Shown: positions 768-24,997 of the stretch, piece by piece | How positions within the stretch are numbered: position 1 is the first letter of the stretch | Layout: the number at the start of each line of letters is the position of its first letter | Assembly: GCA_015956445.1 (NCBI GenBank) | Contig: WIUZ02000008.1 | Location: 558,001 to 622,000 of the forward strand | Direction: 5' to 3' | Source: Thelephora terrestris | Taxonomy: Eukaryota > Basidiomycota > Agaricomycetes > Thelephorales > Thelephoraceae | DNA: 64,000 nt | The notes under the pieces: model-generated | Databases searched by the model: none | Seen by the model: the letters and a program-made list of their open reading frames with translations, nothing else | What the model was told of the DNA's origin: nothing | Made by a program: the position numbers and the translations under genes

Positions 768-1390
768 ATGCAGCATCTCACCCTCGCCGATGTTAGCCGC
801 CTCCACAATCCTGCCAGGACTCCTCGAACCGACCAAGTGGCCAATAAGGTGCTCAAAGGGTGCGACTCCGCGTTATCCACGATGCTAACTTTTTGCAGAC
901 CAATGGCCCCGTGGCTATTGTTGGCCTGCTCAACGATGAACAACTCACCGTATCGCTGCGTTCCCTTGATTCTGGGAGCACACTTTTGGAGCGACAATGC
1001 ACCAGATTCAATGACCAGGAGTTCAGAATCATTGGTGGCACTCCCGGCTACGCCCACGGATTCTGTGACGTTGTGGCGGGGGAGACGAATGAAGGCCTCA
1101 AACTCGTGATTGAGTCGCATCGGTGCTACGAGGCTGACCCGCAGGGCAACGCCTCTGTTCGGAAGGTACAGATGAACATCCACCACCTGGCGGATCATTG
1201 ACCGCTCGAATGCAGAGGTTTCACCGCCATGCTTTCGTCTGCCGTGGCCTATCTCATACAAATATCGTCCCTTTCCTTGGTGTCTTTTCCAGCGAAAAGT
1301 TCCCCTACGCCTGTGTTTTCGAGTCGATCGGTAAGGAAAACCTCAAAGAATATCTCCTTGGCAACCCCGGTTGCTCAAGGTTAAAACTCA
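768..1390 (+). pseudogene. Kinase-like gene copy A, 3'-truncated
   Basis: Three exons match copy B closely: 768-848, 899-1165 and from 1216. They cover the N-terminal leader, the degenerate glycine loop with the VIESHR motif in place of VAIK, and the following helix region up to RLK. The sequence then jumps at about 1390 into what in copy B lies 914 bp further on, so the hinge, catalytic-loop, activation-loop and C-lobe exons are absent. The TATA element upstream is also altered (TATAAGA near 711, against TATAAAAG in B). It cannot encode a complete domain. This is a host gene remnant left by deletion after duplication. Confidence 0.85.
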
Positions 1391-1539
1391 TGTTTGCTAA
1401 CACGCCGTTGTCTCGAGTCGGTTGTGCGTCTCCTCCACCTCGTGGAACCGGCCCGTCGGAGGCGGTGGTCCGGGCGCTTCTCACACGGTCAAGCAGCAAA
1501 TGCCAAGACCGCTGACAAACCATGGCTACTCGAGACTGC

Positions 1540-2325
1540 GGGCAACATCCGGGATTAGCACTCCCTGGACAATTCGAGGGAATCCGTACACGATTTTCCC
1601 TGAGAGGTGTTCATTTTGCTAGCCTTCTCGAGGACCAAAGAATCTTCGAGCGCTAAACACAGGAATCGGTTGTAATCACTTGGGCGTGAACGTCAGCCTC
1701 TCGGTCAACGTCACTGTTCCGACGAGTAGAGTTTTCGGGTGTGATCAGTTCAACCTCTGGAGCGTGTGCGCACAGCACTGATTGTCTCAGTCTGTGGCAA
1801 TGAAATGGTGTACTAGGATTGGGGTGCGAATAAGGGTTTGGTGACTCGGATCGAGCCGAGGGAGGAGGTCAGGCGATAGATGGAAGTGTGTCATACGGAC
1901 GCGAGCAGAAGAACCTTAAAAATGAACCGAGACGTAAGGAACCAAAACCTAAGATTGAGAGTGTCGAATACATAGCTCTATTTGCAGTGCGGGGCGAAGG
2001 GCAAGGGCCATGCTAAACTTGGGGTTTACTGTAGGGGAGGGACAGGATTAAGTGGACGAGAAGCGCGCTGATGTGCAAAGGCGGTCGATTGTCGACAGTC
2101 ACCGGATCCTCGCGCAGGATCATTTGAGACCTCACAAGGGTCACTTCGCACTTGATAGTCACAAAGTCGACTAATCGTGCTTGCATTTTTAGGTATTGGT
2201 AGCTGAAGGAAGAAATCATTGCGACGATATAGGCTTCCCAACACCAAGCCATAGCTCAGACACACGCCAACGCAGTACGCACATAAGAAAGGTTCTTGGG
2301 CTCGCTCATGTCGACAGGCAGCGCT
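1540..2325 (-). pseudogene. 3' shard of a PNS1-like transporter gene
   Basis: Read on the minus strand, the translation near 2252-2190 (AWCWEAYIVAMISS) parallels the PNS1 homologue of this window (MTWGAYIVGMISS near 27650). The lower part, including the region of the parent stop codon (about 1550-1600), resembles 27190-27330 at the nucleotide level. Only the last exons of a CTL/SLC44-type gene are present, with no start and a decayed frame. It abuts the 3' end of an F-box remnant at about 2330. The twin shard at 8380-9165 is almost identical, so this shard was already part of the duplicated block. Confidence 0.6.
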
Positions 2326-2334
2326 CCAATTCCC

Positions 2335-3230
2335 AGTACACAATATCTGTCTCAGTAGGATCGAAGAGATCGCCGCGGATGCACTCCCGGGCGGACGAGA
2401 CTACGCTGGGATGCGAGAAAGCTGTGGCCTGGTAAAGAGGAAACTCGGCGCTGCACTGCGGATAGGACTGGAAGATATTGGGCCTGTCCGCTGCGGCGAA
2501 AAATCTTCACAATGCGGAGGGAAGACATCCGCAATTGTGGGCGGCGGGGGATTGGATGAAACAACAGTCGGCTGGGGGACACGGGTGAAGTTTGAGGACC
2601 ACCTTCAAGCTCCTCATCATATTGAAAGTGGGCGAGGTCCAGCTCAGGAGCCCTAGGGTGCTTGGAATGGTTTTGTGGACTGTAAACAGCTCCTTCACGC
2701 AACCCAACGACAATGGCCGAGAACCAAACTCCCGCGGACCACCATATCCTACAACACAGGGCCCAGTGGACATCCACGGGCACGCCACAACCCGTGAGAT
2801 GAACCCACCCGCCCCGGATAAGGGGTACCCGTCGTTGTCGTCAGGTGTGGATTGTCAACCTGTGCGAAGCATCAAATGTCCGTGATAGAGGTGGGCAAGA
2901 AGCGTGATGGGACGGGGGCCAGTGGGCCAGCATCATCTATCTGGAAGGGGGGCACGTGGAGGGTCTCAACCGAATAGGTACTTCGTTGCACCTCGACAAC
3001 GGGGGGTCTCGAGGATGATTAGTGTGGACTGTCAGCCTTTTCGACCGTGATTGGGCCTCATACCAAGGCCAGAATAACTTCTAAGGCCGGATTTGCAGCT
3101 AAACGGTCGGAGGAGGGGGGGATGGCGCGTTAGACAAAGGGGCCTCGTGTCGGAGGAGACAACGTCCGGAGGGCGTGTCAAATGTGGAAAGAGCGGTGGT
3201 GAGCAATCCGGAGGGCAACCAACTGACTGG
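2335..3230 (-). pseudogene. F-box/LRR gene remnant (i)
   Basis: The sequence aligns with the 3' half of the intact F-box gene at 19099-20697. It shares the 3'-end signature at 2340-2360, the region coding for peptides like DIHWVVGYGGPREF (seen here as altered frames near 2700-2790) and the leucine-rich stretch. Several frames carry the similarity, so it is not translatable as one protein. The N-terminal F-box part is missing, and at about 3230 the homology switches directly to an ABC-transporter fragment. It is probably non-functional. Confidence 0.7.
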
Positions 3231-3235
3231 TTCAA

Positions 3236-4681
3236 TGGCCAAGAAATCGTGAGCACGATCAGCCCGGAAAATGCGCTCAAGCCCAGGAGGTTGTATAAGT
3301 AAACGCCTGCGATCGCGATTTCGAAAGGTGCCCCGTAAATGAAGTACATCCCCGAAGCGAGAAAAGCGATTTGGTTGGCATCACCGGACATCATGTTAAC
3401 GACCTTTCCGACGTCTGCGCTGGACTTGGGATCGTTGGCTTTCTCTGCGCCTTTGTCTGTATTGTCTTTCCGAACGGTTCCAGAAAAGTCCTTCCTTTTC
3501 AGCGCTTTGTCGTAAATAGAGGCCATGAGGAGAGTACGGATCCTGACTTGAGCGCGACGACCGAACCACAGGTGCAGACAATCGGTTTCTGCCTGTGGTG
3601 GAGCAGTCAGTGAGAAATCACGCGCGCTGCGGCTTCGATGACGCACCTTCAACACCGTGGCCAAGAATGCGGCAAAAGCATAGATGTACGCCTTTGCGCG
3701 ATTCTCAGGGGAGGGATGTTCGATTGCAGCAAGGATCCTCTGAAGGAAGAACGGGCCAGCGTAGGTAAAAGTGACACTGATGAGCGTCAAGAGGAAATCC
3801 CAAATCATGTCACCGGAATTGGCAGCCCATAGTTTCCAGATGATGGAGGTGTGGCCAAGATCTTTTGCCAAAGATGTGATCGGGCGGGAGGAGAGTGTTG
3901 GACTCAACTTCCAGACGTCATCCTCGTTCAAGGTATTGTAAGTGCCCTTCTTGATGAGGGGAACCACCCAATGGAAGGAAATCCAGTCCCATAAGGAACA
4001 ATAATCTTCGGGCCCCACGCTCTTGCTTACGTCGTCTTTGTTGACTGTTGCGCTTGGGACAGCGAACGGCATGTTCGAAACTGTGGCAAGCAGGAGGGTG
4101 ATAACGGAAAGGTTGACAACACGTGCCACCAATGAAATCCGGGAGGGCAACGGGAGCTCGTAGACGCTATAGTCGAAGAGCGATCCGCCCAAAATAATGA
4201 GCCCCGTCAGGAGATGCGCGAGATAGAGGACGAAGAGGTCGTAGAAGACGGTCTGGGACGGCAATATGATCGGTCGGAAGCAGGCGTAGAGCCAGGTTAC
4301 AGAGGTGACGACGGGTAAAATTACATCCCAAATTCTGGCGTTGACGGCGAACGAATACGAGCCAAGTCCCAACCACGCGATGACCTGGAATAGCGCGAAG
4401 CTGGAGAGGATAACTGCATGGAAGATGGGAGTGACGGGTTTAGGAGTGTAGGCATCCGCGAAGCTACGCTCTTCTTTCTCGTACGCGGCTTCATACGCTT
4501 CGGCTTGCTCGAGAGTGAGGGAGTTCCTGAACGGGTGAGAGGCTCTTTGCCAGGCGCACCGGACCCGTCCTGGAGCCGGGATGAGGGTTGCACAGAAAAA
4601 GATGACTAGCGCGGATGGAAGGATGCAAGCCCATAACTCTCGGACGAATGGGTCTCCGAAGTCGAAGAGGTTCGTACCCAT
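3236..4681 (-). pseudogene. ABCC-type (MRP/Ycf1-like) transporter, N-terminal fragment
   Basis: Reading from the ATG at 4681, the product has an N-terminal membrane domain with several hydrophobic helices, then a linker with the ABCC-typical EDYCSLWDWISFHWVVPLIKKG segment (LWDWISFHWVVPLI) and the start of the first ABC transmembrane domain. The latter includes RRAQVRIRTLLMASIYDKAL (RAQVRIRTLLMASIYDKAL) and a KVVNMMSGDANQ motif. A probable intron ends near 3596. The homology stops after SWPLNQ at about 3236, where F-box remnant sequence begins. Both nucleotide-binding domains and the second membrane domain are absent, against a normal length of 1,400-1,600 residues. It cannot transport. Family assignment is firm and the substrate is unknown. 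Confidence 0.8.
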
Positions 4682-4889
4682 TACAGGGGGCGCCGAGCGT
4701 GGGTAGCCAGTTGGTAGGGGTGCGTGAAGGAGTTGTCGATGTTCCTCGTGGGGTGCGGAATGGTGATCTGGCGCTTACAAACGCACACAAGGCCCGGCGT
4801 TGATCCGTCCGGATTTCTCACATGAAGCACACCAAAAAGTAAGCATTCCTATCTTTACGCCACGAAAACGTATCCAGCACTCCTATAGT

Positions 4890-5795
4890 TTATACATAAT
4901 ATTTGTCTCAGTAGGGTCGGAAAGTACGCCGCTGAAATCCCTGATGTCTTTTTGGGTGGGCGACTCTACGTGGGGAGACAGGGAAATATTCCCACAGTGC
5001 ATACGAAGGGCGCACAGTTGTCGGGGAGGGGGGAGAATGGAGCGACAGTCAGCTGGGAGATACTTCCAAGCTCCTCGTCGTATTGATAAGCGGGGCTAGG
5101 TCCACTTCGGAAGTCCTAGAGCGCTCGAGAATAGCGTTGTAGGTTATAAACAATTTCTTCACGCAATCCAAAGAAAACGACCGAGGATAAAACTTCCGCG
5201 AGCACTTCATCATGCATCATATCCCACAATCCAATGGATATCCATAGGCCCGCCGCAGTCCGCGGGAGTGAATCCGTGCGAGTCCACTTCATTGTTCGTC
5301 CCGAACAAGCGATACCTGTGGCTGGTCACGAGTAGCGACGGAACCATCAACCTTTTCGACCGTGATTGGGCCGACGCTAAGATCGAGATAGATTTTGAGG
5401 CGGATTGACAGACATAAGGTCGAATAAGGGGGAGATAGCAGGCCAAGTTGAGGGATGTGAAGGATGTGAAGCAAAGGCACTTCGTGTCGAAAGAGACGCC
5501 ATCCAGGGAGAGCATTTCGGATACGGAGGGTTGTGGTAGGTAATACAGATACCAACCTCTTGTGAGATTCGGTTAAATGGTTATCTAACACTCCGAGGGG
5601 GGCGGAGCGTCCGTCCAAAGATTCATTCGAGGAAGAACTTCAAAGCATTGATCTGCCGACTGGGCCACCTCTTATGTCGAATAAGTGGGTTGGCGAACAT
5701 GCGCCCAAAACGTAGAGCGAGCCTTTCCAAACGTTATTGAGAACTTCCGAGAGTATCGCTGTGATATGTCGTTCAGGGGCGGTGTAGGCATGCAA
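4890..5795 (-). pseudogene. F-box/LRR gene remnant (ii)
   Basis: The minus strand resembles the intact F-box gene over both ends. At 4895-5290 there is the C-terminal part, with MDIHWIVGYD and DSHGFTPADCGGP parallels. At 5680-5795 there is the region equivalent to the short first exon. The middle is shortened and the frame is broken, so a full F-box/LRR protein is not encoded. It lies upstream of, and on the same strand as, the ABC fragment, repeating the F-box to ABC order seen again at 12.2-13.7 kb. Confidence 0.65.
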
Positions 5796-6651
5796 GTGGG
5801 CAGAGGTCCAGCAGCCCGATCACGCGTGTGGTGGCCATCCGTAACGTGATGTCGGGTGCGCGCAGGCCGGGGTTATTACTAAGCCTCGGCTATGGTAAAT
5901 CCACTCACTTGCAGTAGTCGGAAGTTACTTTTGGCAACGTACCCAATCTTCGGGTGTCCCAACGAATGAACTCCCACAGCAAACTAACCAACTTTCTGTT
6001 GCAATTAGGGTTCCAATGGCCGAGCCTATTCGTTGACGGAATTTCGGACGGTTTTAGTGATTGTTGATTGGCAACTTAAGGTCCCCAAAATTCCGTACCT
6101 TCACAAGGATGAGATCATTCAGTACAGAATCCATGGCGAAGGTACTGGTCTCGCGAGAGTGATCAGCTGGGGAATCAACCGTAGGAGGTGCGTTGCGGAT
6201 CATACAAACGAGCGAAGTGTATGCTCAGGGATGCTCAGAGCTCTCGAAGCGGGCGCGAAGGAGACTTACAACAACTCCCTGCCGACGTCTGACCCCAAAA
6301 CAGAGTCCCCAGTTTGAAAATACTCAACCTCGAACGAGATGAACCTATGTGTAGATTTATAAACCGCAGATTTACAAAACACACCTCGCCCCAGACAACG
6401 GTCGAGGTCCTGATGGTTTCATTTTCAGCCAGGATATTCGACGTTCCGAAAACTTCGAGCGCTGGAGAAAATTACCCATTATATGATATCGCTCGCGCTC
6501 ACTGCCAACGCCAATCTCATATCTGGGTCCGGTGGTGTGGAACCTACACTGTTCCGAATTCGATTGATGACCCCACTGGCTGGTGAAGACGATCACCTGG
6601 ACGCGCGGTTTTGGATTGGCTATCTCGATAATTGAACTGTGCCATCTCAAG

Positions 6652-6660
6652 TATAAAAGC
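6652..6660 (+). promoter_or_regulatory. TATA box of kinase-like gene B
   Basis: TATAAAAG lies about 50 bp before the start codon. The same element stands 60-70 bp before the start codons of copies D and E. A TTCCGAATTCGAT motif lies further upstream at 6552-6564. Confidence 0.6.
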
Positions 6661-6705
6661 GACGAGTAAGGCCCTATCTCCTCCTCGACTACCGCCTCAG
6701 ACACC

Positions 6706-8008
6706 ATGCAAAATCTGACCCTCGCCGATGTTAGCCGCCTCCACAATCCTGCCAGGACTCGAACCGGCCAAGTGGCCAATAAGGTGCTCAAAGGGTGCGA
6801 CTCCGCGTTATCCACGATGCTAACTTTTTGCAGACCAATGGCCCCGTGGCTATTGTTGGCTTGCTCAACGATGAACAACTCACCGTATCGCTGCGTTCCC
6901 TTGATTCTGGGAGCACACTTTTGGAGCGACAATGCACCAGATTCAATGACCAGGAGTTCAGAGTCATTGGTGGCACTCCCGGCCACGCCCACGGATTCTG
7001 TGACGTTGTGGCGGGGGAGACGAGTGAAGGCCTCAAACTCGTGATTGAGTCGCATCGGTGCTACGAGGCTGACCCGCAGGGCAACGCCTCTGTTCGGAAG
7101 GTACAGATGAACATCCACCACCTGGCGGATCATTGACCGCTTGAATGCAGAGGTTTCACCGCCATGCTTTCGTCTGCCGTGGCCTATCTCATACAAATAT
7201 CGTCCCTTTCCTTGGTGTCTTTTCCAGCGAAAAGTTCCCCTACGCCTGCATTTTCGAGTCGATCGGTAAGGAAAACCTCAAAGAGTATCTCCTTAGCAAC
7301 CCCGGTTGCTCAAGGTTAAAATCGGTGGGCAACCTTATTTCGTTTTGTGATAAACTTGACGTGTTAATCTCTTGTTCGGATCAGCTGGCGGAAGTTGCTC
7401 GGGGTCTCCATCACATCCACGATTTGGACACCGTCCACGGCAGCATCAGAGGCGTACAAATTTCTGATTCTCAGTGACCGCTCTGTACTAATTTAATGTG
7501 CCCCCAGGCGAACATACGCATCGATGAGCAAGGAACCGCCAGAATAGCCGGATTTGCCTCCGCCACGCTCCCCGATGTTGATATCACACCGGAAGATGTT
7601 GATGTGCTCGTCGAGGCGCGATGGTGCAGTCCAGAACTCCTGCAGCCGGGCGCAAATGGGTTAAACAAGGCAAGGGCAACAAAGGCTAGCGATATGTATG
7701 CTTTTGGCATGCTGGCTTATGAGGTGAGTTCCGGTTTCCGCACGGTACCCCGGCTTTACTCAATCTGGGCTCAGGTTTTCTCTGGTCAAGTGCCGTTCCA
7801 CGATAAGCAAAACACCGTTGCGGTAATTACTGCGATCAGCACAGATGAGCGGCCTCCCCGTCCTACTCATCAGGAACTGTCTGACCAACTGTGGGAATTG
7901 ATCGAAAAGTGCTGGCAAACGGATCCATCGCACCGTCCGACTATCCGGGAGGTCGTCGCATTCATGTCCGAAGACTCATACTGTTGTGAGGTTCAGGTCA
8001 CACAATAG
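6706..8008 (+). CDS. Predicted pseudokinase B (TKL-like kinase domain)
   Basis: Six exons (6706-6783, 6834-7100, 7151-7324, 7385-7453, 7508-7723, 7775-8008) join with all introns in phase 0 and give about 345 residues, almost only a kinase-like domain. What remains of the fold: the SHTNIVPFLGVF strand region, the LHHIHDLDTVHG loop, ANIRID, RWCSPE (APE-like), KASDMYAFGMLAYE, and CWQTDPSHRPT of the C-lobe. What is lost: VAIK reads LVIE (Lys to Glu), HRD reads HGS, and DFG reads GFA. The family resembles the large TKL-type kinase expansions of Agaricomycetes. With these substitutions I infer no phosphotransfer; a binding or scaffold role is possible. It appears intact and expressible, with a TATA box upstream. 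Confidence 0.8.
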
Positions 8009-8379
8009 CGTCGCCAGCCTATGTATATAGTAAGCACCCGAACCCGACTACGTACTCCAACTACAAAGGTCTTGGCCGGCAGAGCCTGGAATCCTATCTA
8101 TATCTCTCGATCTCGACTCGGACTCGTGCCCAGCGACGACCTTGGATGATCCGATTATCTAAGGCCCTTTAGGCAGCCCACTTGCAATTGTCTTGAGAAT
8201 CCTTTGCCTCAGGCTGTCAACCGCACAGATTGCTACTCATATTTGCTAACACGCCGTTGTCTCGGCTCGGTCATGCGTCTCCACCACCTCGTGGAACCGG
8301 CCCGTCGGAGGCGGTGGTCCGGGACAGTCAAGCGGCAAATGCCGAGACCGCTGACAAAACATGGCCACTCGAGACCGCA

Positions 8380-9165
8380 GGCAACATCCGGGATTAGCAC
8401 CCCCTGGACAATTCGAGGGTATCCGTACACGATTTTCCCTGAGGTGTTCGTTTTGCTACCCTTCTCGAGGACCAAAAAATTGTCAAGCGCTAAACACAGG
8501 AACCGGTTGTAATCAATTAGGCGTGGACGTCAGCCTCTCGCGGACAGGGTCAACATCACTGTTCCTGCGAGTAGGTTTTTCGGGTGTGGTCAGTTCAACC
8601 TCAGGAGGGTGTGCGCACAGCACTGATTGTCTCAGTCTGTGGCAATGAAATGGTGTACTAGGATTGGGGTGCGAATAAGGGTTTGGTGACTCGGATCGAG
8701 CCGAGGGAGGAGGTCAGGCGATAGATGGAAGTGTGTCATACGGACGCGAGCAGAAGAACCTTAAAAATGAACCGAGACGTAAGGAACCAAAACCTAAGAT
8801 TGAGAGTGTCGAATACATAGCTCTATTTGCAGTGCGGGGCGAAGGGCAAGGGCCATGCTAAACTTGGGGTTTACTGTAGGGGAGGGACAGGATTAAGTGG
8901 ACGAGAAGCGCGCTGATGTGCAAAGGCGGTCGATTGTCGACAGTCACCGGATCCTCGCGCAGGATCATTTGAGACCTCACAAGGGTCACTTCGCACTTGA
9001 TAGTCACAAAGTCGACTAATCGTGCTTGCATTTTTAGGTATTGATAGCTGAAGGAAGAAATCATTGTGACGATATAGGCTTCCCAACACCAAGCCATAGC
9101 TCAGACACACGCCAACGCAGTATGCACCATAAGAAAGCTTCTTGGACTCGCATTTTTCGACAGGG
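8380..9165 (-). pseudogene. 3' shard of a PNS1-like gene, second copy
   Basis: Nearly identical to the shard at 1540-2325 and similar to the 3' exons of the PNS1 homologue at 27187-29665. The minus-strand translation near 9097 reads AWCWEAYIVTMISS. It has no start and no upstream exons, and joins F-box remnant (iii) at about 9170. Confidence 0.6.
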
Positions 9166-9174
9166 AGCCCTCCA

Positions 9175-10020
9175 ATTCCCAGTACACAATATCTGTCTCA
9201 ACCGCGGAAACACCCCCGGGCGGACGAGACTATGCTGGGATGCGAGAAAACTGTGGCCTGATGAAGGAGACATCGCTGCATTGCGGATAGGACCGAAAGA
9301 CATTGGGCTTGTCCACTGCGGTGAACGATCTTCACAATGCGGAGGGAAGACATCCGCGATTGTGGGCGGCGGGGGATTGGATGAAACGACAGTCGGCTGG
9401 GGGACACGGGTAAAGTTTGAGGACCACCTTTGAGCTCCTCGTAATATTGAAAGAGGGGGAGGTCCGGCTCGGAAGCCCTAGGGTGCTTGAAATGGTTTTG
9501 TGGGCTATAGGCAGCTCCTTCACGCAACCCAACGACAATGGCCGAGAACCAAACTCCCGCGGACCACCATATCCTACAACACAGGTCCCAGGGGATATCC
9601 ACGGGCACGCCACAACCGCGAGACGTATCCGCCCGCCCCGGATAAGGGTACCCGTCGTTGTCGTCAGGTGTGGATTGTCAAACTGAGTTGCATCGTCAGC
9701 CTTTTCGACCGTGATTGGACCTCATGCCAAGGCCGGAATAACTTCTGAGGCCGGATTTGCAGCCACAAGGTCGGAGGAGGGGGGGATAGCGCGTTAGACA
9801 AGGGGGCCTCGTGTCGGAGGAGGGGTTCGGTTGTGTGGTTGCCTGGGGTTATGAAGGCAGCGGGGCGTTTTGACTTCCTGTTCGAGGGAGAATTCCAAAG
9901 GCCACTTGTTTGTCTCAGGTGTGTGTGTGGGTTGACAAACATACGTGTGAAATGACGAGTGAGCCTTGAGGTTTCTTCAGGGCGAAGTGCTGTTCAAGGG
10001 CGGTGAGGAAGTGGTCACGG
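9175..10020 (-). pseudogene. F-box/LRR gene remnant (iii)
   Basis: Homologous to the intact F-box gene at its 3' end (9180 onward) and near its first exon (9930-10020, with the retained acatacg splice-donor context). The central leucine-rich part is shortened and its similarity is scattered over frames. The part up to about 9830 matches remnant (i) in the twin block. It is not translatable as one F-box protein. Confidence 0.65.
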
Positions 10021-10059
10021 ACTCCTTGCTAGTACTACAGCTCTGCGGCAACTGCCGAT

Positions 10060-10480
10060 ACGAGGCCGACAACTCACACTCGGCCACAATCAGAGCTCCG
10101 TCTCGTCAAATGCACACAACGTTCCTAACCGCTGCGCATTCATCTATGGCGACAGTCGGGTCACTGTTCCCCATCACCACCAGAGAAAATCGTGAGCGCC
10201 GCCCACAGACGCGTTTCATAGCATTGGTCGCCGTCACGTCGGTTCACAAGCCAGCTTGACTATGTCACCCAAATCCACCTTCCTCCAGTATTCGGAAGTT
10301 GCTCTTTCAAATGCACCCTAGGGTTGGATGCACCAAGATTAGTATCGAGATACTGTCAGCACACTGCCCAAAGTTCAATGTCGTATCCGGATTCTAAATA
10401 CCTAGTTTGTTTCATAACCTAGCAGTCACTCTGGTATTCGTTCGCGGATGCCCTCAGACCAGGCAATCGAGGACTCTTAG
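10060..10480. repeat. Repeated F-box/kinase intergenic block
   Basis: No gene is seen here. The stretch, with the ATGGCGACAGTCGG and AACGCACCC-like words, recurs between the F-box and kinase-like genes at about 20790-21250, 23380-23830 and 24000-24340, and partly at 13740-13950. In the intact arrangement it is the divergent upstream region shared by an F-box gene (minus) and a kinase-like gene (plus). Confidence 0.6.
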
Positions 10481-10654
10481 GGATTTTGGCTGGTTCTTTT
10501 TCGCTTCATTCGGTCACAGCCTGCGCGGTGATCATAAATGAGCTTTGGATGTATCACCAAGTGCGATTTATTTCTGTATGTCGAAATGGGATTTCAACAC
10601 ACCGCCCCACGTACAAAAGAGAAGGATGGTACCACCACTCCAGCCTGAGTCCCC

Positions 10655-11969
10655 ATGCAACCTTTCACCCTTGCCGACCTGACCCGCCTTCCCTCTTCCA
10701 ACGTTGCTGGGACTCGAACCCACCAAGTTGCCAGAAAGGTATCCAATCATATGTCTCTGCGTTGATCATGATGCTGAAGTTTCATAGACCAACGGCTCCG
10801 GCCTTATCGATGGCGTTCTCAACAAAGGAGGGCTTACAGTATCACTACGCTCCCCCACTTCTAGAGAGACCCTTTTAGAGAGAACCTGCACCAGAGTCGA
10901 CGAGCCGGAGCTGCGAATCATCGGTGACATCCAAGGCCATGCCTACGGTTTCTGTGAGGTCTTCGCTGGGGAGACGAGAGAAGGGCTCAAAGTCGTGATT
11001 GAGTCTCATCGACGCTACTCAGCTGACCCGCAGGGCAACGCTTCTGCACTCAAGGTATGGATGAAGATCTACTATCGTACATCTCATTGACCACTCGAGT
11101 ACAGAGATTCCACCGTCAGGCCCTCATTTGCGTTGATCTGTCTCACAGAAACATCGCGCCTTTCCTTGGTGTCTTTTCTAGTGACAAGGTCCCCTACGCC
11201 TGCGTCTTCAAATCGGTTGGCAAGAGTAGCCTCCCAGAGTACCTCGTTGGCAACCCCGGTGCCGCAAGGTTGAAACTGGTTAGCGACCTTCTTTTCTTTC
11301 TGGCGTAAACTTACTGTTCCAACCCCTTATGCATGTGGGTCAGTTGGTGGAGGTTGCTCGGGGTCTCTACCACATTCACGACCTAGGCATTGTCCACGGT
11401 AGCATAAGAGGCGTACGAATGGTTCATTCTCAATGGTTGCTCCTTCCTCACTGTGCCACTAGACAAACATACGCGTCGACGACCACGGGACCGCCAGAAT
11501 AGCTGGATTTGCTTCCGCCACGCTCCCCAATATCATATCGGAAGATGTTGATGAGTTCGTCGAGTCGCGGTGGTGCAGTCCTGAACTCCTCGACCCAGAC
11601 GGATTTGGGTTGACCAGGGCAAAAGGGACCAGGGCTAGCGACATGTACGCCTTTGGGATGCTGGCTTATGAAGTGGGTTCCAGTTTCCGCGTGGTGCCTC
11701 GACGAACTTGCTCAATTTCTGCTCAGATTTTCTCTGGTCGAATGCCTTTCCACGATCTCCAAGGTGCTGCTGTGGTAATCGCTGTGGTCACCAGAAATGA
11801 ACGACCTCCCAGGCCTCCTCATCGGGAACTATCAGGTCAGCTGTGGGCTATGATCGAAAGGTCATGGCAAACGGACCCATCGCAGCGTCCCACCATCCAA
11901 GAGTTTGTCACACTCTTGGAGGATAAGGATCGTGACGTTCGTTTACAGCTATACAACCATCGCGCGTAG
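10655..11969 (+). CDS. Predicted pseudokinase C
   Basis: Exons 10655-10738, 10788-11054, 11105-11278, 11344-11412, 11463-11672 and 11727-11969 join in phase 0 to about 348 residues. Exon lengths 2, 3 and 4 (267, 174 and 69 nt) are identical to copy B. The VAIK position reads VVIE, the catalytic loop reads HGSIRG then TN, and the DFG position reads GFA; RWCSPE, ASDMYAFGMLAYE and WQTDPSQRPT are kept. It is more diverged from B than A is, so it is an older duplicate. No TATAAAAG element is evident before it, unlike B, D and E, so its expression may differ. A non-catalytic role is inferred. Confidence 0.8.
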
Positions 11970-12224
11970 CATTGTTCAGAATTCTCTATCATGTGTTTTT
12001 GTTTCACTCGGGCTCTTTGATGATAATCCACGTGGGTTTTTTGTAATATGATACCCCTCTCTGAGACGTCCTTCAAGAAGCTATTTACCTTACAGCACCA
12101 TAACGTTGGGTCGAACGACCACGGCGACAAGCAAGATGCTGATGGCAGATGGCAGATGCTCAACAAGGGCTCGTAGTCGAAGGGCGAGTCCCCTAGAGAG
12201 TTACGAATTTAATTGCAAGATGCG

Positions 12225-12385
12225 ACTGGGGATTGATAATTGAAGGAACGTATTTGGGGGCGTAGTAATACCGTGCAGTGCCACGCTCTTGTTTTTCGTA
12301 CTCGGGAGCGACGGAGTTCCTGAACAGGCGAGAGGCCCTCTGCAAGGCGGACCGAACCCTTCCTTCGTGGAACGGTGAACGGGCG
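12225..12385 (-). pseudogene. Shard of an ABCC transporter gene
   Basis: The minus-strand translation holds GRVRSALQRASRLFRNS and EKQERGTARYYYAPKYVPSI. These parallel GRVRCAWQRASHPFRNS and the EKEERSFADAYTPKPVTPI stretch of the ABC fragment at 3236-4681. Only about 50 codons survive. It sits beside the 3' end of F-box remnant (iv), the same F-box/ABC neighbourhood as in the first part of the array. Confidence 0.65.
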
Positions 12386-12419
12386 CTTAATAAACTACAC
12401 CGAGAAAGCCGGATTGGAA

Positions 12420-15560: not shown

Positions 15561-16388
15561 GGTCGCCTTCACACCCAGCTCAAGGAAGAGATCATTCATG
15601 GCGAAGGTGTGACAAGGTCTCACGAACACGAGGGAACCGTGAGAATCAGCCACGTTAGAGGCGCTGCGTCGTGCTGGACCGGCGAAGTCTGTGTTGAAAG
15701 CATACCAGCGGTCGAAGCGGGTGCTGGGGAACCATACGACAACACCCCGTTCGACCCCCAGCCGAAGACACGGTCTAGTAGGTTCTGGCAATTTACCTTT
15801 TCAGCCGGTGTGTTCCGCGTTTTGAAATTTCAAATGCGGTGGAAAGTCACTCAATTTGAGTTCAGTTGACACATCGAATGCTCGAGATCTACATCAATTC
15901 CTCTTCATTTTACCCCTTCTCACGTTCTGCGCTGTTTGACCGAATCAAAATCAAGACCGCTGGAGGCCGAAACACCACGTCGCGATATGTGGGTACTGAC
16001 CTCTGCGAGAACTCTATGGAGGTCGCCGATTAGTAATCGGTGGAGGACGGCCGTGGATCCTGCCGCCGGCCGACTATATTGCTCGGGAACCGATTATGAA
16101 ATTCATTTTCGCAAGGACCCGGCACTAGAAAATGCCGATATGGCGCAGCCAGCCCAAAGAAACATACTCGCGCGGCTCAAGTGTCCACCAACTCCGCGCA
16201 TACCTTCCAGTCAGGCACCGTCAAGAAACCTTGGAAGCAACTTGGAAGCAAGGTAATTTGATCACGGCCCCACGTGACCAGCTCAATCATAGTGAATTCG
16301 AATCGGATTTCGAGCGTTTCCTGGACTCAACGTCAAGCAGAGTTTCTGGGTGTTGGGGTCGCAATTCAGCAAGCAGTGTTGTCTCAAG

Positions 16389-16396
16389 TATAAAAG
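16389..16396 (+). promoter_or_regulatory. TATA box of kinase-like gene D
   Basis: TATAAAAG preceded by CTCAAG, as in copy B, 63 bp before the start codon. Confidence 0.6.
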
Positions 16397-16458
16397 CGAA
16401 AAATGGGGTCGCTACAGTCCTCATCAACCCTAAGCCCTTCACTCCTGCCTCAGACACC

Positions 16459-17725
16459 ATGGAACACGCCGACGTTGGCCGCTTGTACCCTGCCAACGCT
16501 ACCGGGATTCGACTTAACCAGGTTTCTAGCAAGGTGCCCAAGCTCATGGCTCTACGTTGTTTATTATGCTAAAGTTTCGCAGACCAATGGCTCCGTGAAC
16601 ATTGCCGGCGTTCTCGACGATAATAAACTCACTGTATCACTGCACTCATCTGGGGGTCCTCTTTTGAAGCGGGGTAATCTTTTGAAGCGAATCTGCCACA
16701 GGCTCAACAACCAGGATGTGCGGATTATTGGACACATTCCCGGCCACACCCACGGACGCTGCGAGGTTTTGGCCGGCGAGACGAATGAAGGCCTCAAACT
16801 CGTGATTGAGTCACATCGGTGCTTCGAAGATGACCCGCAGGGCAACTCCTCTGCCCAGAAGGTATAGACGAACATCAACCACCTGACGTCTTATTTACCA
16901 TTTGAGTACAGAAGTTTTACCGCCATGCCCTCATCTGCGGCGACCTATCTCATACAAACATCGTACCTTTCCTTGGGGTCCATTCCAGTAACCAGTTCCC
17001 CTACGCTTGCATTTTCAAAGCGGGTGGCAAGGAAAACCTCAAAGAATATCTTGGAGGCAACCCCGGTGCTTCAAGGTTGAAAGCGGTAAGCAGCCTGCTT
17101 TCGTTTTGTGGTATACTTCCGATGCTAACCCGTTTTGCATGGGGGACCAGCTGGCAGAAGTTGCTCGAGGTCTCCACCACATCCACGATTTAGGCATAGT
17201 CCACGGTAGCATTAGAGCCGTACGGATGTTTGATTCTCCATGACCGTTCTGCGCTCACTCTGCCTCCAGGCAAACATACGCATCGATGACCAAGGGACCG
17301 CCAAAATAGCTGGATTTGCTTCCGCTACGCTTCCCAATATCACATCGGAAGACTTTGATGATTCTGGTAGATCCGACGTCTCGCGATGGTCCAGCCCCGA
17401 GATATGTCACGGTAACGGGTTAACCGAGGCAAGCGACGTATATGCCTTTGGAATGCTGGCATATGAAGTGAGTTTGAGTTCCCGCACGGTACATCGACCT
17501 TACTCGATTTGCTCCCAGGCTTTCTCTGGCCAAGTGCCTTTCCACGGTAAGGTAGACACCGCTGTGGTGATCGCGGTGATCAACGGAAATGAGCGACCTC
17601 CCCGTCCCGCTCATCAGGAATTGTCTGACCAATTGTGGGGAATGATCGAAAAGTGCTGGCAAAAGGAGCCTTCGGATCGTCCCACTATCCGGGAGCTGGT
17701 CGCCTTCTTGGAGTTGGAGAAATAA
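16459..17725 (+). CDS. Predicted pseudokinase D
   Basis: Exons 16459-16533, 16583-16861, 16912-17085, 17151-17219, 17270-17467 and 17519-17725 join in phase 0 to about 333 residues. Exon 2 is 12 nt longer than in B, from a short internal repeat (LLKR...LLKR). The core positions read LVIE for VAIK, HGSIRA then AN for HRDxxxxN, and GFA for DFG. RWSSPE, ASDVYAFGMLAYE and CWQKEPSDRPT remain. It faces the intact F-box gene tail to tail. It is a complete reading frame with a proper TATA box and is likely expressed. Confidence 0.8.
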
Positions 17726-19098
17726 TTATCGTTCACAGCGTTAGCCCAATTAGACTTCCTGTTCGGATACTATCTTGTTACAAGGTCCAGATCACACAAT
17801 TAGTTTCTCTTGACTTTCACCTATTATTTCACCGGACGATGTAGCTAGTATATAGGGGCTCGAACCTATGTCCTGTAGCTACTATGAAATTCTTGATATA
17901 AATTTACTTAGACAATGAAAGTGGTGATCACAAACAAAACTGGACGAAACCGAAAAAAAAATTCACAGAAAAGGCCCTCCCTCCTCACCCTCCTCCTGAT
18001 CGTAGTCTGGTCAAGCTGCGTCACGAAAAAGGATCCATACCGGCGCACACGCTGCCACATTGTCGCTCTTATGCTTCCTTCGGCCCGATTATTTGATTGT
18101 TGCGTCGGCACGATTATTTGTCTGCTGCAACTGGCTCCCCTGGCCAGTTGCCATTCCTCCCCTTCCGGTTATCCACCTAGCTACCCCTTGCCAATCTCCC
18201 TGGCTACCCGCGTCACCCTTCTTTATTCGACTCCCTTGTATAAGCACGTGTATACAGCGTTAACTTTAAATCAGTTGCGGAACAAGAGTCCGAAAACAAA
18301 ACAAAAAATCAGGATACCACTAGTAGTTGTAGTTTGAAACAGCCGCAGTCCATCCCACTAAAATTGGCACCATCCCAAGTAGATTTGCGCTCGGATGCCT
18401 GTTCCCTGCCGCCACCGGTTGCACGTTGATGGCACGCCCCGGGCGTTGCGGGATCATTTCCTTTTATAGATTCCCAGCGCACTGTTTCCAGCCAGCACGG
18501 GGTAATTTGGCCTCCTTACTTACGTGATTACATGCAAAGTATTGAAGTGAAAGTTGCGCCAAAAACGGGCCAAAGCCTGCGCGGCACCATCTAACCCAAT
18601 GTCCATTCCGACGCGTCAAACTCTATCGATCCCGCTGCTTTAATTTACATCTGCGATTGGATTGGATGTGATCATTTTTATTCCGTCAGCTCAGGAAAGC
18701 GACCATTGCGGGTCCCCATCTGGATACTATACTGATTCCTCTTATAGATATAAATCGGTAGCTTCGAGTACTCTGAGCAGACAGAGGAAAGAAAATCCGG
18801 TTGGTGTATTACCTCCATGCGCCACCCATCACACTGTTCCATAAATATTTCTGACGAGGCGAGACAAATATCGTGCGGACAGCTATGGCGGTGCCCGGAC
18901 TCTCGACGCATCCCGACTCCGCGCGATCGATGGTACTGAGGTGTCGAATATGGGTAGGCAGTCGGCAGGCGTGCGTCGAGCTGTCAGTGGGATGATGTTC
19001 CGAATGGTCGCGTGAAAGTGGCTGATGCGGCTCGGCCGCTACAGTGATCTGTCCGGATCTCTCGCAATGCAAGCGCAGAGAGTGTATTCGTACAGGTC
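17726..19098. other. Convergent intergenic region, no gene recognised
   Basis: This region lies between the 3' ends of pseudokinase D and the F-box gene. A plus-strand open frame at 17915-18337 has biased composition and no recognisable motif. A GGGGCTCGAACC word at 17855 resembles a tRNA B-box but has no cloverleaf around it. Confidence 0.4.
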
Positions 19099-20697
19099 CT
19101 ACACATTATCTGTCTCCGTAGGGTCGGAGAGAACGCCACTAAACTCCCTGATGTATTTCTGGACGAGCAAGTCTGCGCTGAGGTGCGGGGAGACCAAGAC
19201 CTTGCGGAGAGCGAGCCCTACGTTCCGGCGCTGCGTTGCGATAGGAAGTAGGGCCGAAAGCCATTGGACCTGTCCACTACAGTTAATGATCTCCACAGTG
19301 TGGAGGGAAGGGCATGTGCGATTGTCGGCGAAGGGGGAGAGGATGGAATGACAGTCAGCTGGGAGACACGAACACAGTTTGAGCACTTCCAATCTCCTCG
19401 TCGCATTGAAAAGAGGAGAAAGGTCCAGTTTGGAAGCCCTAGGGCATTCGAGAGAGGTTTGGTGGGCTATAGTCAACTCCTTCACGTAATCGAACGACAA
19501 TGGCTGAGGGTCAAACTCCCGCGGTCCACCATATCCCACAACCCAGTGGATATCCACAGGCCCGCAGCGCCCCACGAGTGTAAACCTGTGCGAGTCCATT
19601 GGCTGTCCCGAACAAGTGAGAACAGTGGTTGTCGTCAAGCTCAGGCTATCGATCTGCGCGAGGTGCCGAATGTTCGTGATGGGGGTGGGCAAGGTGCGGG
19701 ATAAAGACAATGGAGGGCCAGTATCCTCTATCTGAATCAAGGTGCTACATGGGAGGGAGAGTCTCGAGAGGAGGAACTCCGCTGCATCTCGACAATGGAT
19801 GGATATGAGATTGTTTAATGTGATGATAGGACTGTCAACCTGTTCGGTGGTGATTGGGCCCCACACGGAGATCGAGATGAACTCCAAGGCGGGGTTTGCA
19901 GCCAAAAGGTCGAGGAAGGGGGAGAATAGTGCGCCAGGAATGTGAAGGCTGAAGGATGTGAGGGATGTGAAGCGAAGGAACTGCGCGCTGAAAGAGACGC
20001 CCCCCAGAGAGAGTGATCGTATAGTTGACATGTCGCTGAAGAGTGGTGGGAGACAGGGGCAATATTCGTACGTGTCGCCAACCATATCGATAGCGACTTC
20101 AGTAATGACTGGCGAAGGTATCGTAAGTCTTGAGAACACATTGGACAACTCGCGGTGACCATACGCCCTCAAACGCAATGTCTTTATGCGCCTCAGGTGG
20201 GCAGATTCGTAGCAGAGGCGATACATGGTGTGGACGTTGAGCGGGAGGTCGCCAGACCTTTCCAGGAAAATTGAGGCCAGATTGAGCGGTTGATTAAGAA
20301 TCAAAGTCCACAAGCTCGGGCAAGATGTTATGATCTCCCTCCACCTGTGGCAGAGGTGGGTGGACTTGAGCAGGCAGGTGTACCATGGCGTGTCGAACGT
20401 GGGGGAGGAACAGTAGTGGGCGATCCGGGTGATGACCTCGGGTGGGATTCGGTTGCACGGCTGCCTAGAGTTCCGAAGAGAGCGAAGCATTCGTCCGACG
20501 TTCTGTTCGAGAGAGAATTCCAAACCATCAATCTGGTCAAGGGGTTAATTTTCCATTTCGAACAGGTGGGTCGACCAACATACGTCCGAGATGGAGAGTG
20601 AGTCTTGTGTGTTTTCCCCAAACTGGTTGAGAGCCTCCGAGCGTAGCGCTGCGATATGTTGTTCAAGGGCAGTGTAGGCGTCCGAGTGGCCGGACAT
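19099..20697 (-). CDS. F-box/leucine-rich protein (intact copy)
   Basis: Exon 1 (20697-20584) starts MSGHSDAYTALEQ; a GTATGT...CAG intron follows; exon 2 (20532-19099) continues in frame to give about 515 residues. An F-box-like segment with the IPPEVITRIAHYC core lies around residues 65-105. Irregular leucine-rich segments follow to the end (for example IRSLSLGGVSF, LEVLKLCSCLPADC). F-box proteins are substrate receptors of SCF ubiquitin ligases through Skp1; the substrate here is unknown. It is the only copy of five or six in the array with a continuous frame. It is transcribed divergently from pseudokinase E (731 bp apart) and convergently with D. Confidence 0.75.
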
Positions 20698-21355
20698 CTG
20701 GTGTTGTGGCTTTGGAATCCTGGGAGACGGTTGGACACGTCAACCACCGACGGCAAGCACCGATCTACGACTTGCCCTTTGCCACCATCAGAACTCCGTC
20801 TCGTCGAGTGCGCACAAAGCTCATAACCACCACGCGGTCATCTATGGCGACCGCCGGGGCGCTCTACCCAGTTCTGCCGAAAAACTCGAACGCTGCACAT
20901 AGACGCGTTACATGGCTTCAGGCGTCCTTAACGTACCCGAGCCGGCCCCCAAATGCGCCCAACCATTGGCTGTGTCACAAAGACCCACCTTTTTCTTGTA
21001 GTCGGAGGCCGCTTTTTTACGATAGACCCTGGCTTTGGGGTTCTGGATATCCCAAGATCAATATCGAGAATACTGCCCTTGCAAACTTCCCGGAATTCAA
21101 TGCCCTATCCAACTTCTGAACACCGGAGTGTTTGCAGTGCCTCCCACCATGTACTCAGGCTCGTTTCACAACCTAGGAGCCACTGTATTATCTGACTATG
21201 AAAACCAGATTCAATCTCCCTTGGTGATTCATTTCGCTTCCGAATTCGATCCTAGCCCCGTCGATCAAAAATTCGATTTTTGGGAAACCTGAGATCAACG
21301 CCGGGCACAATTTCTGAATATTGGGCTTGGAATTCAATAAGCTGTGGGATTTAAG

Positions 21356-21364
21356 TATAAAAAG
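21356..21364 (+). promoter_or_regulatory. TATA box of kinase-like gene E
   Basis: TATAAAAAG, about 64 bp before the start codon. A TTCCGAATTCGAT motif lies at 21238-21250. Confidence 0.55.
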
Positions 21365-21427
21365 GGAGGGGTGGGCTAGCCACAAATCCCATCCGTCTTT
21401 AACTCTTCCACTCCAACCTCAAGTATC

Positions 21428-22681
21428 ATGCTACAACAACCCAACATGGCCGACGTTGCCCGCCTCAACGCCGGCAGGACTCAAATCGGCCGAGTCCAGG
21501 GCAAGGTGCCCAAATTCTCTGATTCTTCGTTGTCCACGATGCTAAAATCCTGCAGACCAATGGCCTCGGGACCGTTTCCGCGGTTCTCGGCGCTAAAGCG
21601 CTTACCACCTCAATGCGCTGCCCTGATTCCCAAAGCATCGCTTCGGAGCGAACCTGTGTCAGATTTGATGACCAGGAGTTGCAAATCCTTGATGAAATTC
21701 CCAGCAACGCCCAATCCTGTAAACTTTTCCCGGGTGAGACGAAAGAAGGCCTCAAAGTTGTGATCGAGTCCCATCGATGTTTCTCGGCTGACCCACAAAG
21801 AAATGCCTCTGCTCACAAGGTATGGGTGGATATCCGCTGACTGACATTTCATTGACCGCTCGAGTACAGAGATTCCACCTCCATGCCTTCATTTGCAGTG
21901 GCTTATCTCATTCAAACATTGTGCCGTTCCTTGGAGTCTTTTCCAGTAATCAGTTCCCCTGCGCTTGCATCTTCAAATTGGTTGGCAATGAATGCCTCAG
22001 AGAATACCTTGTTAGCAACCCCGGCGCTTCAAGGTTGAAATTGGTGACCAAGCTTTTGTTCTCTGGTAGACCTCGTGCTAACTCCTCATGCATGGGGGAT
22101 CAGCTGGTTGACATTGCTCGGGGCCTCCACCACATCCACGATTTGGACATTGTCCACCGTAGGATCAAAGATGTACGAATGTTTGATTTTCATTGATCGC
22201 TCTCTACTCACTCTGACGCCAGACAAACATACGCATCAGCGACTCAGGGACTGCCATGATAGCTGGGTTTGCTTCCGCTACGCTCCCCGGTATCGCATCG
22301 GAAGGTGTTGACGAGTCTGCCGAATCCAACGCGTCGCGATGGTGTAGCCCCGAAATCATTCGCTCAGGTGGTTCCGAGCTTACCAAAGCCAGTGACATAT
22401 ACGCCTTTGGAATGCTGGCTTATGAAGTGAGTTCCACTTTCCGCATGGTACCCTGACGTTACTCAATTTCTCGCTTTGAGATATTTTCCGGTCGAATGCC
22501 GTTCCACGATAAGTTAGACACCGAGGCGGTAATGATTGTTACCACCACAAATCAGCGACCTCCTCGTCCCATTCATCAGGAATTGTCTGGCGAACTTTGG
22601 CATATGATCGAACGGTGCTGGCAAGAGGATCCATCGCAGCGTCCCACTATCCAGGAGGTCGTCGCGTTCTTGGAGAAATAA
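21428..22681 (+). CDS. Predicted pseudokinase E
   Basis: Exons 21428-21505, 21556-21819, 21870-22043, 22104-22172, 22223-22426 and 22481-22681 join in phase 0 to about 329 residues. It is the most divergent of the complete array copies. VAIK reads VVIE, the catalytic loop reads HRRIKD (Asp to Arg) instead of HGSIRG, and DFG reads GFA. RWCSPE, ASDIYAFGMLAYE and CWQEDPSQRPT are kept. The persistence of an open frame and of every splice site despite this divergence suggests constraint on the fold, not on catalysis. Confidence 0.8.
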
Positions 22682-22884
22682 GTTTCGATCTGATACCGTT
22701 AGCCGACGCTTAGACTCCCCGTTCAGAAACGTATCTCGTTGTTTAAGATCAGCTCCTAGTGGTCTAGATATCCCCCGGAATGATCATGATACCTCTTTGT
22801 TTTTCCCCCATGATTTTACCAGAGCTTGGTACTCTTTCTCTCGTGCCCAAGACCCGTAGTGCGACGACTCCTGATAATCGGCCG

Positions 22885-23260
22885 AAATTATTTCAACAAT
22901 GGGGAATTACGAGGTCGTTGATCGCCCAAATGTCGACACTTTCGACCGGGATTGTGCGCCGGTGACAGGGATCAGGGAAGCGAAGGAGTTTCGTATCGAA
23001 AGAGACGTAGAGCATGTCGAATGTGGGAAAAGAGCACCGGAGGGTAATCCGGGTCACAAACTCTGGTGGGGCTCGGTTACATGGTCCTCTAAAATAATTT
23101 GGTAGCCGTACTATGGCTTTTTGTTCCAAAGAGAGATCTGAAGTAAGTTATCTGGTGATAGCGGGTTAATGAACATAGTCCAAAAGAGAGGGCTGCGTTG
23201 TGGAATTTCCCCCCAGACTGCTCGAAAGCCTCCGAGCGCATCGTTGCGGTGAGAGTTCAA
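22885..23260 (-). pseudogene. F-box/LRR gene remnant (vi), internally deleted
   Basis: The minus strand joins the N-terminal part (NRAPPEFVTRITLRCSFPTFD, as PPEFVTRITLRCSFPTFD; the intact gene has IPPEVITRIAHYCSSPTFD) to a downstream segment (VSFDTKLLRF; the intact gene has VSFSAQFLRF). About 0.4 kb of coding sequence in between and the whole C-terminal half are missing. Confidence 0.7.
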
Positions 23261-23379
23261 GGCGTCCGGTTGGTCAGACACTTGGCGCTGCAGCTTTTGA
23301 ATCTTGAGACCAGTCGGACGGAGTGGACAAGTAACCCGCCGGCGGCAATTGCCGATGTGCGACTTCCCTTGGCCACCAT

Positions 23380-24370
23380 CAGAGCTGACCACCACGCGTT
23401 CATGTATGACAAGAGGCGGATTGTATCTCACTCAGTACTACGGAAATCTTGACCGCCGCCCAGAAACTTGTTTCTTGGTATCGGTGGTTCCAGGTAACGT
23501 AATATTCAACCTCGGTTCAGAAGCCAATGTAACTCCTGGCTGCCTCACCAAAATCCAGCTTTTCCCAGTAGCCGCAACCTGCTTCCTGCAACGCATCCTG
23601 GGTTATGAATATCCCAATATTAATATCGAGAACACAGTCGCCCGCGCACCGCCCCACAGTACATGCCATATTCGGATTCCAGATACCGGATTGTTTGCAG
23701 TGTGTCTCACAATGTACCCTTGTTCGTTTCGCAACTCGAAAGCCACCTGTTTTTTTTTGTTTGTGAATGCCCTCAGACCAGATAATCCGATTGTCCTTGG
23801 ACATGGCACCCGAGTCATTCTTCAATTCCGGAATCGATCACCATGGATGGTGTTGATCATAAGATTTTGGGATCCCGTGGGATCCTAACGCAGATCCGCC
23901 TCCTCACCTCGCCACTCCTGCGGCTTTGGGTCTTGGGCTAGGTCGTGTCGTCGTGGACAAGTTGATTACCGATACACGGCTTTCTCTCCGCGACAGTCAG
24001 GGCTCGTCTTGTCAAGATCATACAACTCTCGCCATCGCGCATTCACCTATGGCGACAGTCGGTTGTGTCACGCCGATTCATGAAAGCCGTGAACGCCTCC
24101 CCTAACCACGTTTCGTGGCGTCAGTCATCGGCAACGTAATATTGGCTCTCAAGCCAGTCTACGCCCTTGTTGTGTCACAGAATTCCAGTAGTTGCTTTTT
24201 GCAACGCACCCCAGCTTTTTCGATTCTGAGTTTCCCAAGATTTGCATCTAGAATACTGCCGCGCAGAGTCAATGCCATGTCTAGTTTTTGGTTTCTAGAT
24301 TCGATCGAAGCCCTAAAATGAACCTGGAGTCGACCGTCTGGCGCAATTTTTGTACGTTGAAGTCGGGATT
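23380..24370. repeat. Two further copies of the F-box/kinase intergenic block
   Basis: The stretches 23380-23830 and 24000-24340 repeat the block seen at 10060-10480 and 20790-21250, including the ATGGCGACAGTCGG word at 24050. No gene lies between them, so a whole F-box/kinase unit appears to have been lost or the promoter block duplicated alone. Confidence 0.5.
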
Positions 24371-24448
24371 CAGTGAAGTGTTCCCCCTACAAAAAGGTGA
24401 GCGGGCCATCACACTCCCCATCTGCCTACGACCCAGGCCTCACACGAC

Positions 24449-24997
24449 ATGCAAGGTTTTATCTCTTATTACTTCAGCTTCCTGCACACTACCAACGCTC
24501 CCAGGACTCAAACCGGTCAAGTGGCCAGCAAGGTGCCCAGGATTATGATTCTGCGTTGACCGCGATGCTGAATTGTAGCAGACCAACGGCCTCATGACCA
24601 ACTCTGGAGCTCTCAATGACGAAGCACCGACCGGTTCACCGTGTTCCTTTGGGAGTACCCCCCTGGAGCGAAGTTCCTCCAGATTCGACGACCAGGAGTT
24701 GCGGATTGCTGATGTTATACCTGAACACGCCCGCGGATTGTGTGAAGTTCTCGTGGACAAGACAAACGAAGGCCCGAAAGTCGGGATTGAGTCACACCGA
24801 CGCTGGCCAGCTGACCCGCAGGGCAACGCTCCTGCTGTCAAAGTATGGATTTATATTCACCACCTGACGTATTATTGACCGCTCGACATGTGCTGGAACC
24901 ATCGCAGCGTGCAACGATCCAGGAGTTCGTCACATTCCTGGAGGATACGGATCATAGCAACAGCCTACAGCCGCAGGATCGTCGCATGCAGCGCTAA
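24449..24997 (+). pseudogene. Kinase-like gene copy F, internally deleted
   Basis: Exon 1 (24449-24532) and exon 2 (24582-24841) are open and carry GIESHRR at the VAIK position. After the next intron start the sequence jumps at about 24887 to the extreme C-terminus (EPSQRATIQEFVTFLED, ending about 24997), which resembles copy C. The exons for the middle of the domain are gone. It cannot form a kinase fold. Confidence 0.8.

Follow-up and report, generated by a model that had tools for sequence, protein, structure and literature searches.

Kinases without at least one of three residues, the VAIK lysine, the HRD aspartate and the DFG aspartate, are classed as pseudokinases (PMC4718504). Some of them, such as KSR and the JAK JH2 domain, which are of tyrosine kinase (TK) or TK-like (TKL) type, are described as allosteric partners of live kinases (PMC12721161, PMC4718504). 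In Toxoplasma, the rhoptry pseudokinases ROP5 and ROP4/7 belong to a lineage-specific family in which, according to the account cited, live and dead members have arisen repeatedly, ROP5 cooperating with a live kinase and still binding ATP (PMC3682881). In Agaricomycetes, the FslK family is reported to consist mostly of single-domain TK/TKL-like kinases with lineage-specific expansions, most of whose members conserve the catalytic residues and are likely active (Zhao et al. 2014, PMC3937382). Here we describe a tandem array of pseudokinase genes in a stretch of 64,000 nucleotides of the agaricomycete Thelephora terrestris, hereafter the window (contig WIUZ02000008.1, positions 558,001 to 622,000; contig C59 in our numbering). 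The array holds four complete genes, B, C, D and E, and two truncated copies, A and F, and is followed by an intact relative, G. The reading that we favour, and consider reasonably likely, is that these genes form a tandemly amplified TKL/FslK-type pseudokinase lineage, in which catalysis was lost first and nucleotide binding probably later, and which is kept as a set of protein-binding modules.

Among described families, FslK would be the closest, and in our tree the array groups with TKL genes of its own genome. All five live paralogs shown match the FslK motif CW-x6-RP, and three of them (L026, L023 and L040) match G-x-R-P. CW-x6-RP is found in B, D and E and starts with SW in C, while G-x-R-P survives in all four genes as x-x-R-P, its glycine being replaced by Asp (B) or Asn (C, D and E). 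The difference lies in the conserved catalytic residues, which the array and G lack. A basic residue in place of the HRD aspartate (HGR in G, HRR in E) recalls the HG[R/K/H] described for ROP5, but the rhoptry proteins are described as parasite-secreted members of another kinase family, with ATP binding in ROP5. JH2 binds ATP and shares a polypeptide with its partner domain, whereas the array domain stands alone and has lost its ATP contacts. Among PDB sequences, B matched best to 7t6f, a tyrosine-protein kinase of 1173 amino acids that we take to be JAK1, both of whose kinase domains matched at similar score. FunK1 is also an expanded fungal kinase family; PF17667, presumably the accession of its Pfam family Pkinase_fungal, was not among the three Pfam families returned for B or C at E-values up to 1, and membership was rejected on that ground.

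Each of the four complete genes has six exons and five GT-AG introns of 49 to 65 bases, all in phase 0. The models, made by eye, contain no internal stop, and a spliced protein-to-DNA alignment with B as query gave identical introns. Gaps in the exon alignment of B to E are whole codons; introns 1, 3, 4 and 5 differ by 1, 5, 4 and 3 bases. The match to PF07714 in B and C lies mostly in the C-lobe, and D, E and G were placed by family alignment. TATAAA occurs 54 to 72 bases upstream of the ATG in B, D and E, and was absent there from C, A and G. Loss of introns or a broken frame, either of which would mark a processed or decayed pseudogene, is absent from B to E and present in A and F. Copy A, with its ATG at 768, closely matches B (95-98.5% identical in the alignment of exons 1-3) but has a 914-bp gap at window position 1385 where the C-lobe has been deleted; F retains exons 1-2 and, at its end, ~30 codons, what lay between having been deleted. 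Within the repeat units of A and B (window 1-3200 and 5840-9840), identity is 95-100% across exons 1-3 and introns 1-2 and 93-94% in the flanks; gene conversion between the two copies may have occurred. G sits ~9 kb beyond the array, and its introns correspond to array introns 2-5, the last being GC-AG.

The active site is changed in all four complete genes. Glu replaces the VAIK lysine in B, C, D and E and also in what remains of exon 2 in A and F, that is, in six of six copies. DFG has become GFA in all four complete genes, and the HRD aspartate is gone from all four, leaving HGS in B, C and D and HRR in E. Because the live paralogs of the same genome mostly carry HGD at this site, the change in the array is one from Asp to Ser or Arg within HGD. 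All three of the residues by which pseudokinases are recognised are therefore lost in B to E. G has lost two, the HRD and DFG aspartates, with HGR at the former (Arg for Asp) and GLG at the latter (Gly for Asp, Leu for Phe), and retains the VAIK Lys, the helix-C Glu, Ala70 and Leu173. From these residues, B to E and G are predicted to be probably without phosphotransfer activity.

A wider comparison was made with the 64 genes, out of a set of 83 defined below, in which the VAIK Lys and the Asp of both HRD and DFG are present. Among 54 columns at least 95% conserved in these live paralogs, the array keeps 26 and loses 18 in all four genes, with 10 mixed. In PKA numbers, which follow our own mapping onto the paralog alignment, the residues lost in all four include A70V, K72E, E91H/Q, D166S/R, L173R, D184G and G186A; those kept in all four include the HRD-His, Asn171, the DFG-Phe, the APE Pro-Glu, the helix-F Ser-Asp, the helix-H Trp and the helix-I Arg. 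Position 173 is described as the sole adenine-capping residue of the C-lobe and always hydrophobic (a 2025 paper, PMC12721161); it is Leu, Val or Phe in all 79 other genes of the 83-gene set and Arg in the four array genes. At the first scored glycine of the Gly-loop, which hardly any live paralog lacks, B and D have His, C has Tyr and E has Gln; the second place, Cys in the array, is of little use for the comparison because most live paralogs have Ala there.

An initial annotation, made by a model from the letters of the window and a list of open reading frames, had described four complete copies with splice sites, phase-0 introns, open frames and C-lobe signatures kept, and with Glu at the VAIK lysine, no Asp at HRD and GFA at DFG. 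The two modelling routes and the residue counts bear this out, with the HRD change now placed within HGD. Its claim that frames survive across the array is true of B to E and not of the truncated A and F, and the extent that it gave the array, 768-24997, encloses B to E but leaves the related pseudokinase G outside.

All comparisons were made within this genome (40.6 Mb in 60 contigs). The paralog search scored the best 117 candidates, and 98 loci entered the selection; 11 of these are window loci and were left out, and from the remaining 87 the distant kinases L001-L006 and L008 and the incomplete models L051 and L082 were dropped. The resulting 78 modelled paralogs, a lower bound on the family, make up the 83-gene set together with B to E and G. 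A catalytic residue is missing in 14 of the 78, two of which have doubtful N-lobe models (L058, L061) and one a stop in its model (L089); these losses are scattered over the tree, the number of separate events being judged by eye. In the maximum-likelihood tree of the 83 proteins, midpoint-rooted like the other, the array and G form one clade, with values of 99.2 in the Shimodaira-Hasegawa-like approximate likelihood ratio test (SH-aLRT) and 100 in the ultrafast bootstrap (UFBoot). Its neighbour is a second divergent clade of four genes (L043, L071, L076 and L095; support 88.5/99). The array and G still group together in a C-lobe tree to which the partial locus L099 (contig C17) was added (FastTree support 0.986).

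Intron positions are in part shared with live genes. The 78 other models have three introns in 72 cases, two in five and four in one, and the fifth intron of the array is also present in G. It is not unique to dead genes, however, because L099 has an intron at the same place and yet carries HGD and DFG, as a live kinase does. A fragment of 301 bases on contig C18 (L100), with HGN and SLG, resembles G and is a partial pseudokinase, too short for the tree. Elsewhere in the family, L025, L036, L087 and L088 form a second clade of pseudokinases, in which the VAIK lysine is Gln and DFG reads GF[N/D]; their kinase-domain dN/dS (ratio of nonsynonymous to synonymous substitution rates, omega) was ~0.38 in two pairs. 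A separate gene, L053, has Glu at the VAIK lysine and Gly at the DFG aspartate, as in the array; its close sister L070 is live.

Taken with the motifs, the tree suggests by parsimony that both aspartates, of HRD and of DFG, had gone by the time the array and G separated. On the array branch, the Lys of beta-3, the Glu of helix C and the glycine of the Gly-loop would then have been lost as well, and the capping Leu replaced by Arg. Since the Lys-to-Glu change and GFA are common to all four copies, the losses predate the duplications by the same principle, and any constraint measured among B to E therefore acted after catalysis was lost.

Such constraint is clear. Pairwise dN/dS among the copies, the check proposed by the initial annotation, was 0.34-0.49 in our own codon-model fit and 0.39-0.56 with family-wide codon frequencies. 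The value near 1 expected of neutral pseudogenes was not found: omega on the four-gene tree was 0.44 (twice the log-likelihood difference 69.5, p 7.7e-17 against 1), and omega = 1 was rejected on all three topologies (p 7.7e-17 to 1.5e-16). Terminal branches, with omegas of 0.31-0.50, each reject 1 (B p 0.0015, D 0.0039, C 4e-7, E 0.0012). Within the kinase domain, omega was 0.34 in the array (pairs BD and CE) versus 0.28 in 23 independent live pairs. The dead stretch from catalytic loop to GFA had an omega of 0.27 (0.12-0.52, region-wise limits coming from a coarse grid; p 0.0014 against 1) and live pairs one of 0.17, for which the limits are not usable. The activation segment did not reject 1 (omega 0.47, p 0.07), and the N-terminal extension was the least constrained region (omega 0.77, branch lengths fixed). 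The copies differ at 33-41% of amino acids, with a synonymous divergence of 0.49-0.84 per site across methods. Under neutral simulation, 5.5-7.2 stop codons were expected per branch on average, and stop-free runs numbered one in 300 for B, D and E each and none for C, so that the intact frames are not due to chance. Constraint that acted after the loss supports selection for an intact non-catalytic protein, and by analogy with known pseudokinases the array proteins probably act by binding other proteins rather than by phosphorylation.

Several observations weigh against this reading. Two of the six array copies (A and F) are truncated, and between A and B exons 1-3 differ by 5 silent and 7 replacement codons, which, in so small a count, gives no sign of constraint. 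On the short branch inside the four-gene tree, omega was 0.84, indistinguishable from 1. Intron interiors diverge by 0.32-0.41 (Jukes-Cantor distance) versus 0.42-0.57 at four-fold sites and a dS of 0.55-0.80; because intron divergence is below synonymous divergence, dN would be ~0.6-0.9 of neutral, and purifying selection is weaker by this yardstick. Branch points left in by intron trimming may explain part of the low intron divergence. Whole-gene omega is also higher in the array than in live pairs of comparable dS, which have a median of 0.31 (94 pairs, overlapping and not independent; p 4e-4 by Mann-Whitney test). The order of loss hangs on a single outgroup, G, which has a long branch, and the argument for docking on a live paralog, taken up below, is one of analogy alone, with KSR, JAK JH2 and ROP5. 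Selection for a non-catalytic role, as put forward in the initial annotation, thus agrees with the purifying selection that followed the loss, but is qualified by the truncated copies, the intron ratio and the excess of omega over live paralogs.

The same qualifications could be read as signs of a family that died recently and whose decay is not yet visible, and the truncation of A and F, the slightly raised omega and intron ratios reaching ~0.9 are all in keeping with such young pseudogenes. Their chances are slim, since the amino-acid and synonymous differences show that the copies are not young, and each terminal branch lies below 1; we rejected this explanation on the divergence and the simulated stops. 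Somewhat less improbable, though still improbable, is selection solely against toxic misfolding, under which roleless proteins must still fold whenever they are made. The columns kept by the array are indeed mostly fold-keeping residues. However, constraint extends to the dead DFG stretch DEQGTARIAGFASATLP, in which 13 of 17 columns are invariant across B to E, and to the Glu at the lysine site in six of six copies; moreover, A and F indicate that loss of a copy is tolerated, so that safety alone need not keep four.

If the proteins were not dead at all, a migrated lysine or other chemistry might provide weak activity. B to E and the A and F remnants all have a Lys four positions ahead of the VAIK site (EGLKxVIE), and WNK and JAK2 JH2 are described as active despite unusual sites (PMC4718504). 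Yet nine of the 83 genes have Lys there, the four array genes among them, which makes it not specific to the array, and both catalytic aspartates, the DFG-Gly and the adenine-capping residues are gone as well; we regard non-canonical catalysis as very unlikely. Restoration of the active site by RNA editing at some stage has a precedent of sorts in the G-to-A conversions reported from basidiomycete transcripts and in a fungal pseudokinase gene, puk1, with edited stop codons (PMC7306014), but the codons leave it next to no chance. At the DFG-Asp position, B, C and D have GGA and E has GGG, from which one edit gives Glu, and AGC at the HRD-Asp position of B, C and D needs two changes; as single changes do not restore these codons, rescue by editing was rejected.

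If the array is indeed a set of protein-binding modules, its history and mode of action might be as follows. The lineage would have its origin in the large expansion of TKL/FslK-type kinases in this fungus and would have been tandemly amplified, the aspartates going before G split off and the ATP contacts afterwards, on the array branch. The domain would fold without ATP, the HRD-His and DFG-Phe of the regulatory spine remaining in place. Between beta-3 and helix C, a reversed contact of Glu with His (with Gln in gene C) may stand in for the Lys-Glu bridge, and Arg would occupy the adenine site. Most likely, such a nucleotide-independent module would dock on a live paralog or on its substrate, with the specificity of each copy set by the fast-evolving N-terminal extension and the activation segment. 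A stronger version, in which the array is a nucleotide-independent class with a reversed Glu/His bridge and a fixed adenine-site Arg, derived stepwise from a G-like dead ancestor that still bore an ATP pocket and amplified to regulate live paralogs, is tentative, and we think it rather doubtful.

Coordinates of the array copies, their relative G and neighbouring reading frames in the window
Feature	Position	Strand	Exons	Evidence or remark
Copy A, truncated pseudokinase	768..1515	+	exons 1-3 (N-lobe)	alignment to B; open reading frame ends at 1515; not counted as a functional gene
Pseudokinase B, 345 amino acids	6706..8008	+	6706-6783, 6834-7100, 7151-7324, 7385-7453, 7508-7723, 7775-8008	hand model and spliced alignment; Pfam PF07714, E 1.3e-32
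Pseudokinase C, 348 amino acids	10655..11969	+	10655-10738, 10788-11054, 11105-11278, 11344-11412, 11463-11672, 11727-11969	hand model and spliced alignment; Pfam PF07714, E 6.1e-28
Pseudokinase D, 333 amino acids	16459..17725	+	16459-16533, 16583-16861, 16912-17085, 17151-17219, 17270-17467, 17519-17725	hand model and spliced alignment
Pseudokinase E, 329 amino acids	21428..22681	+	21428-21505, 21556-21819, 21870-22043, 22104-22172, 22223-22426, 22481-22681	hand model and spliced alignment; HRR instead of HGS
Copy F, deletion-truncated	24449..24997	+	exons 1-2 and last ~30 codons	alignment
Relative G, intact pseudokinase	33928..35254	+	5 exons	spliced alignment; tree clade with array
Duplicated neighbour reading frame, 481 amino acids	19099..20544	-		F-box-like by eye; the one intact copy; internal decay control
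Long reading frame inside the A-B interval	3032-4774	-		by eye, similar to part of an ABC transporter
Reading frame between array and G	30154-31044	-		by eye, similar to PP2C-type protein phosphatases
Long reading frame	53483-55024	-		transposase-like by eye

The duplicated neighbour of the pseudokinase genes, which has no Pfam match, offers a measure of decay within the same repeats. Ten further tblastn matches to it lie near 2.5-3.1, 4.9-5.7, 9.4-9.8, 12.4-13.6 and 22.9-23.1 kb; seven contain stops and the other three are short pieces of 41-73 residues. At five of the six sites located, this reading frame is broken; for the pseudokinase the count is two of six.

Pseudokinases as such are well known. 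The lineage formed by B to E and G appears to be new, as judged by titles and abstracts: among the matches listed for fungal, basidiomycete or Agaricomycetes pseudokinases and for tandem kinase duplicates, the array lineage was not found. The expansion of TK-like kinases in fungi has been published as one of mostly active enzymes, and the dead array and G stand in contrast to it. Together, G and the array provide a natural series that leads from a live kinase to a catalytically dead one and then to one that is probably nucleotide-free.

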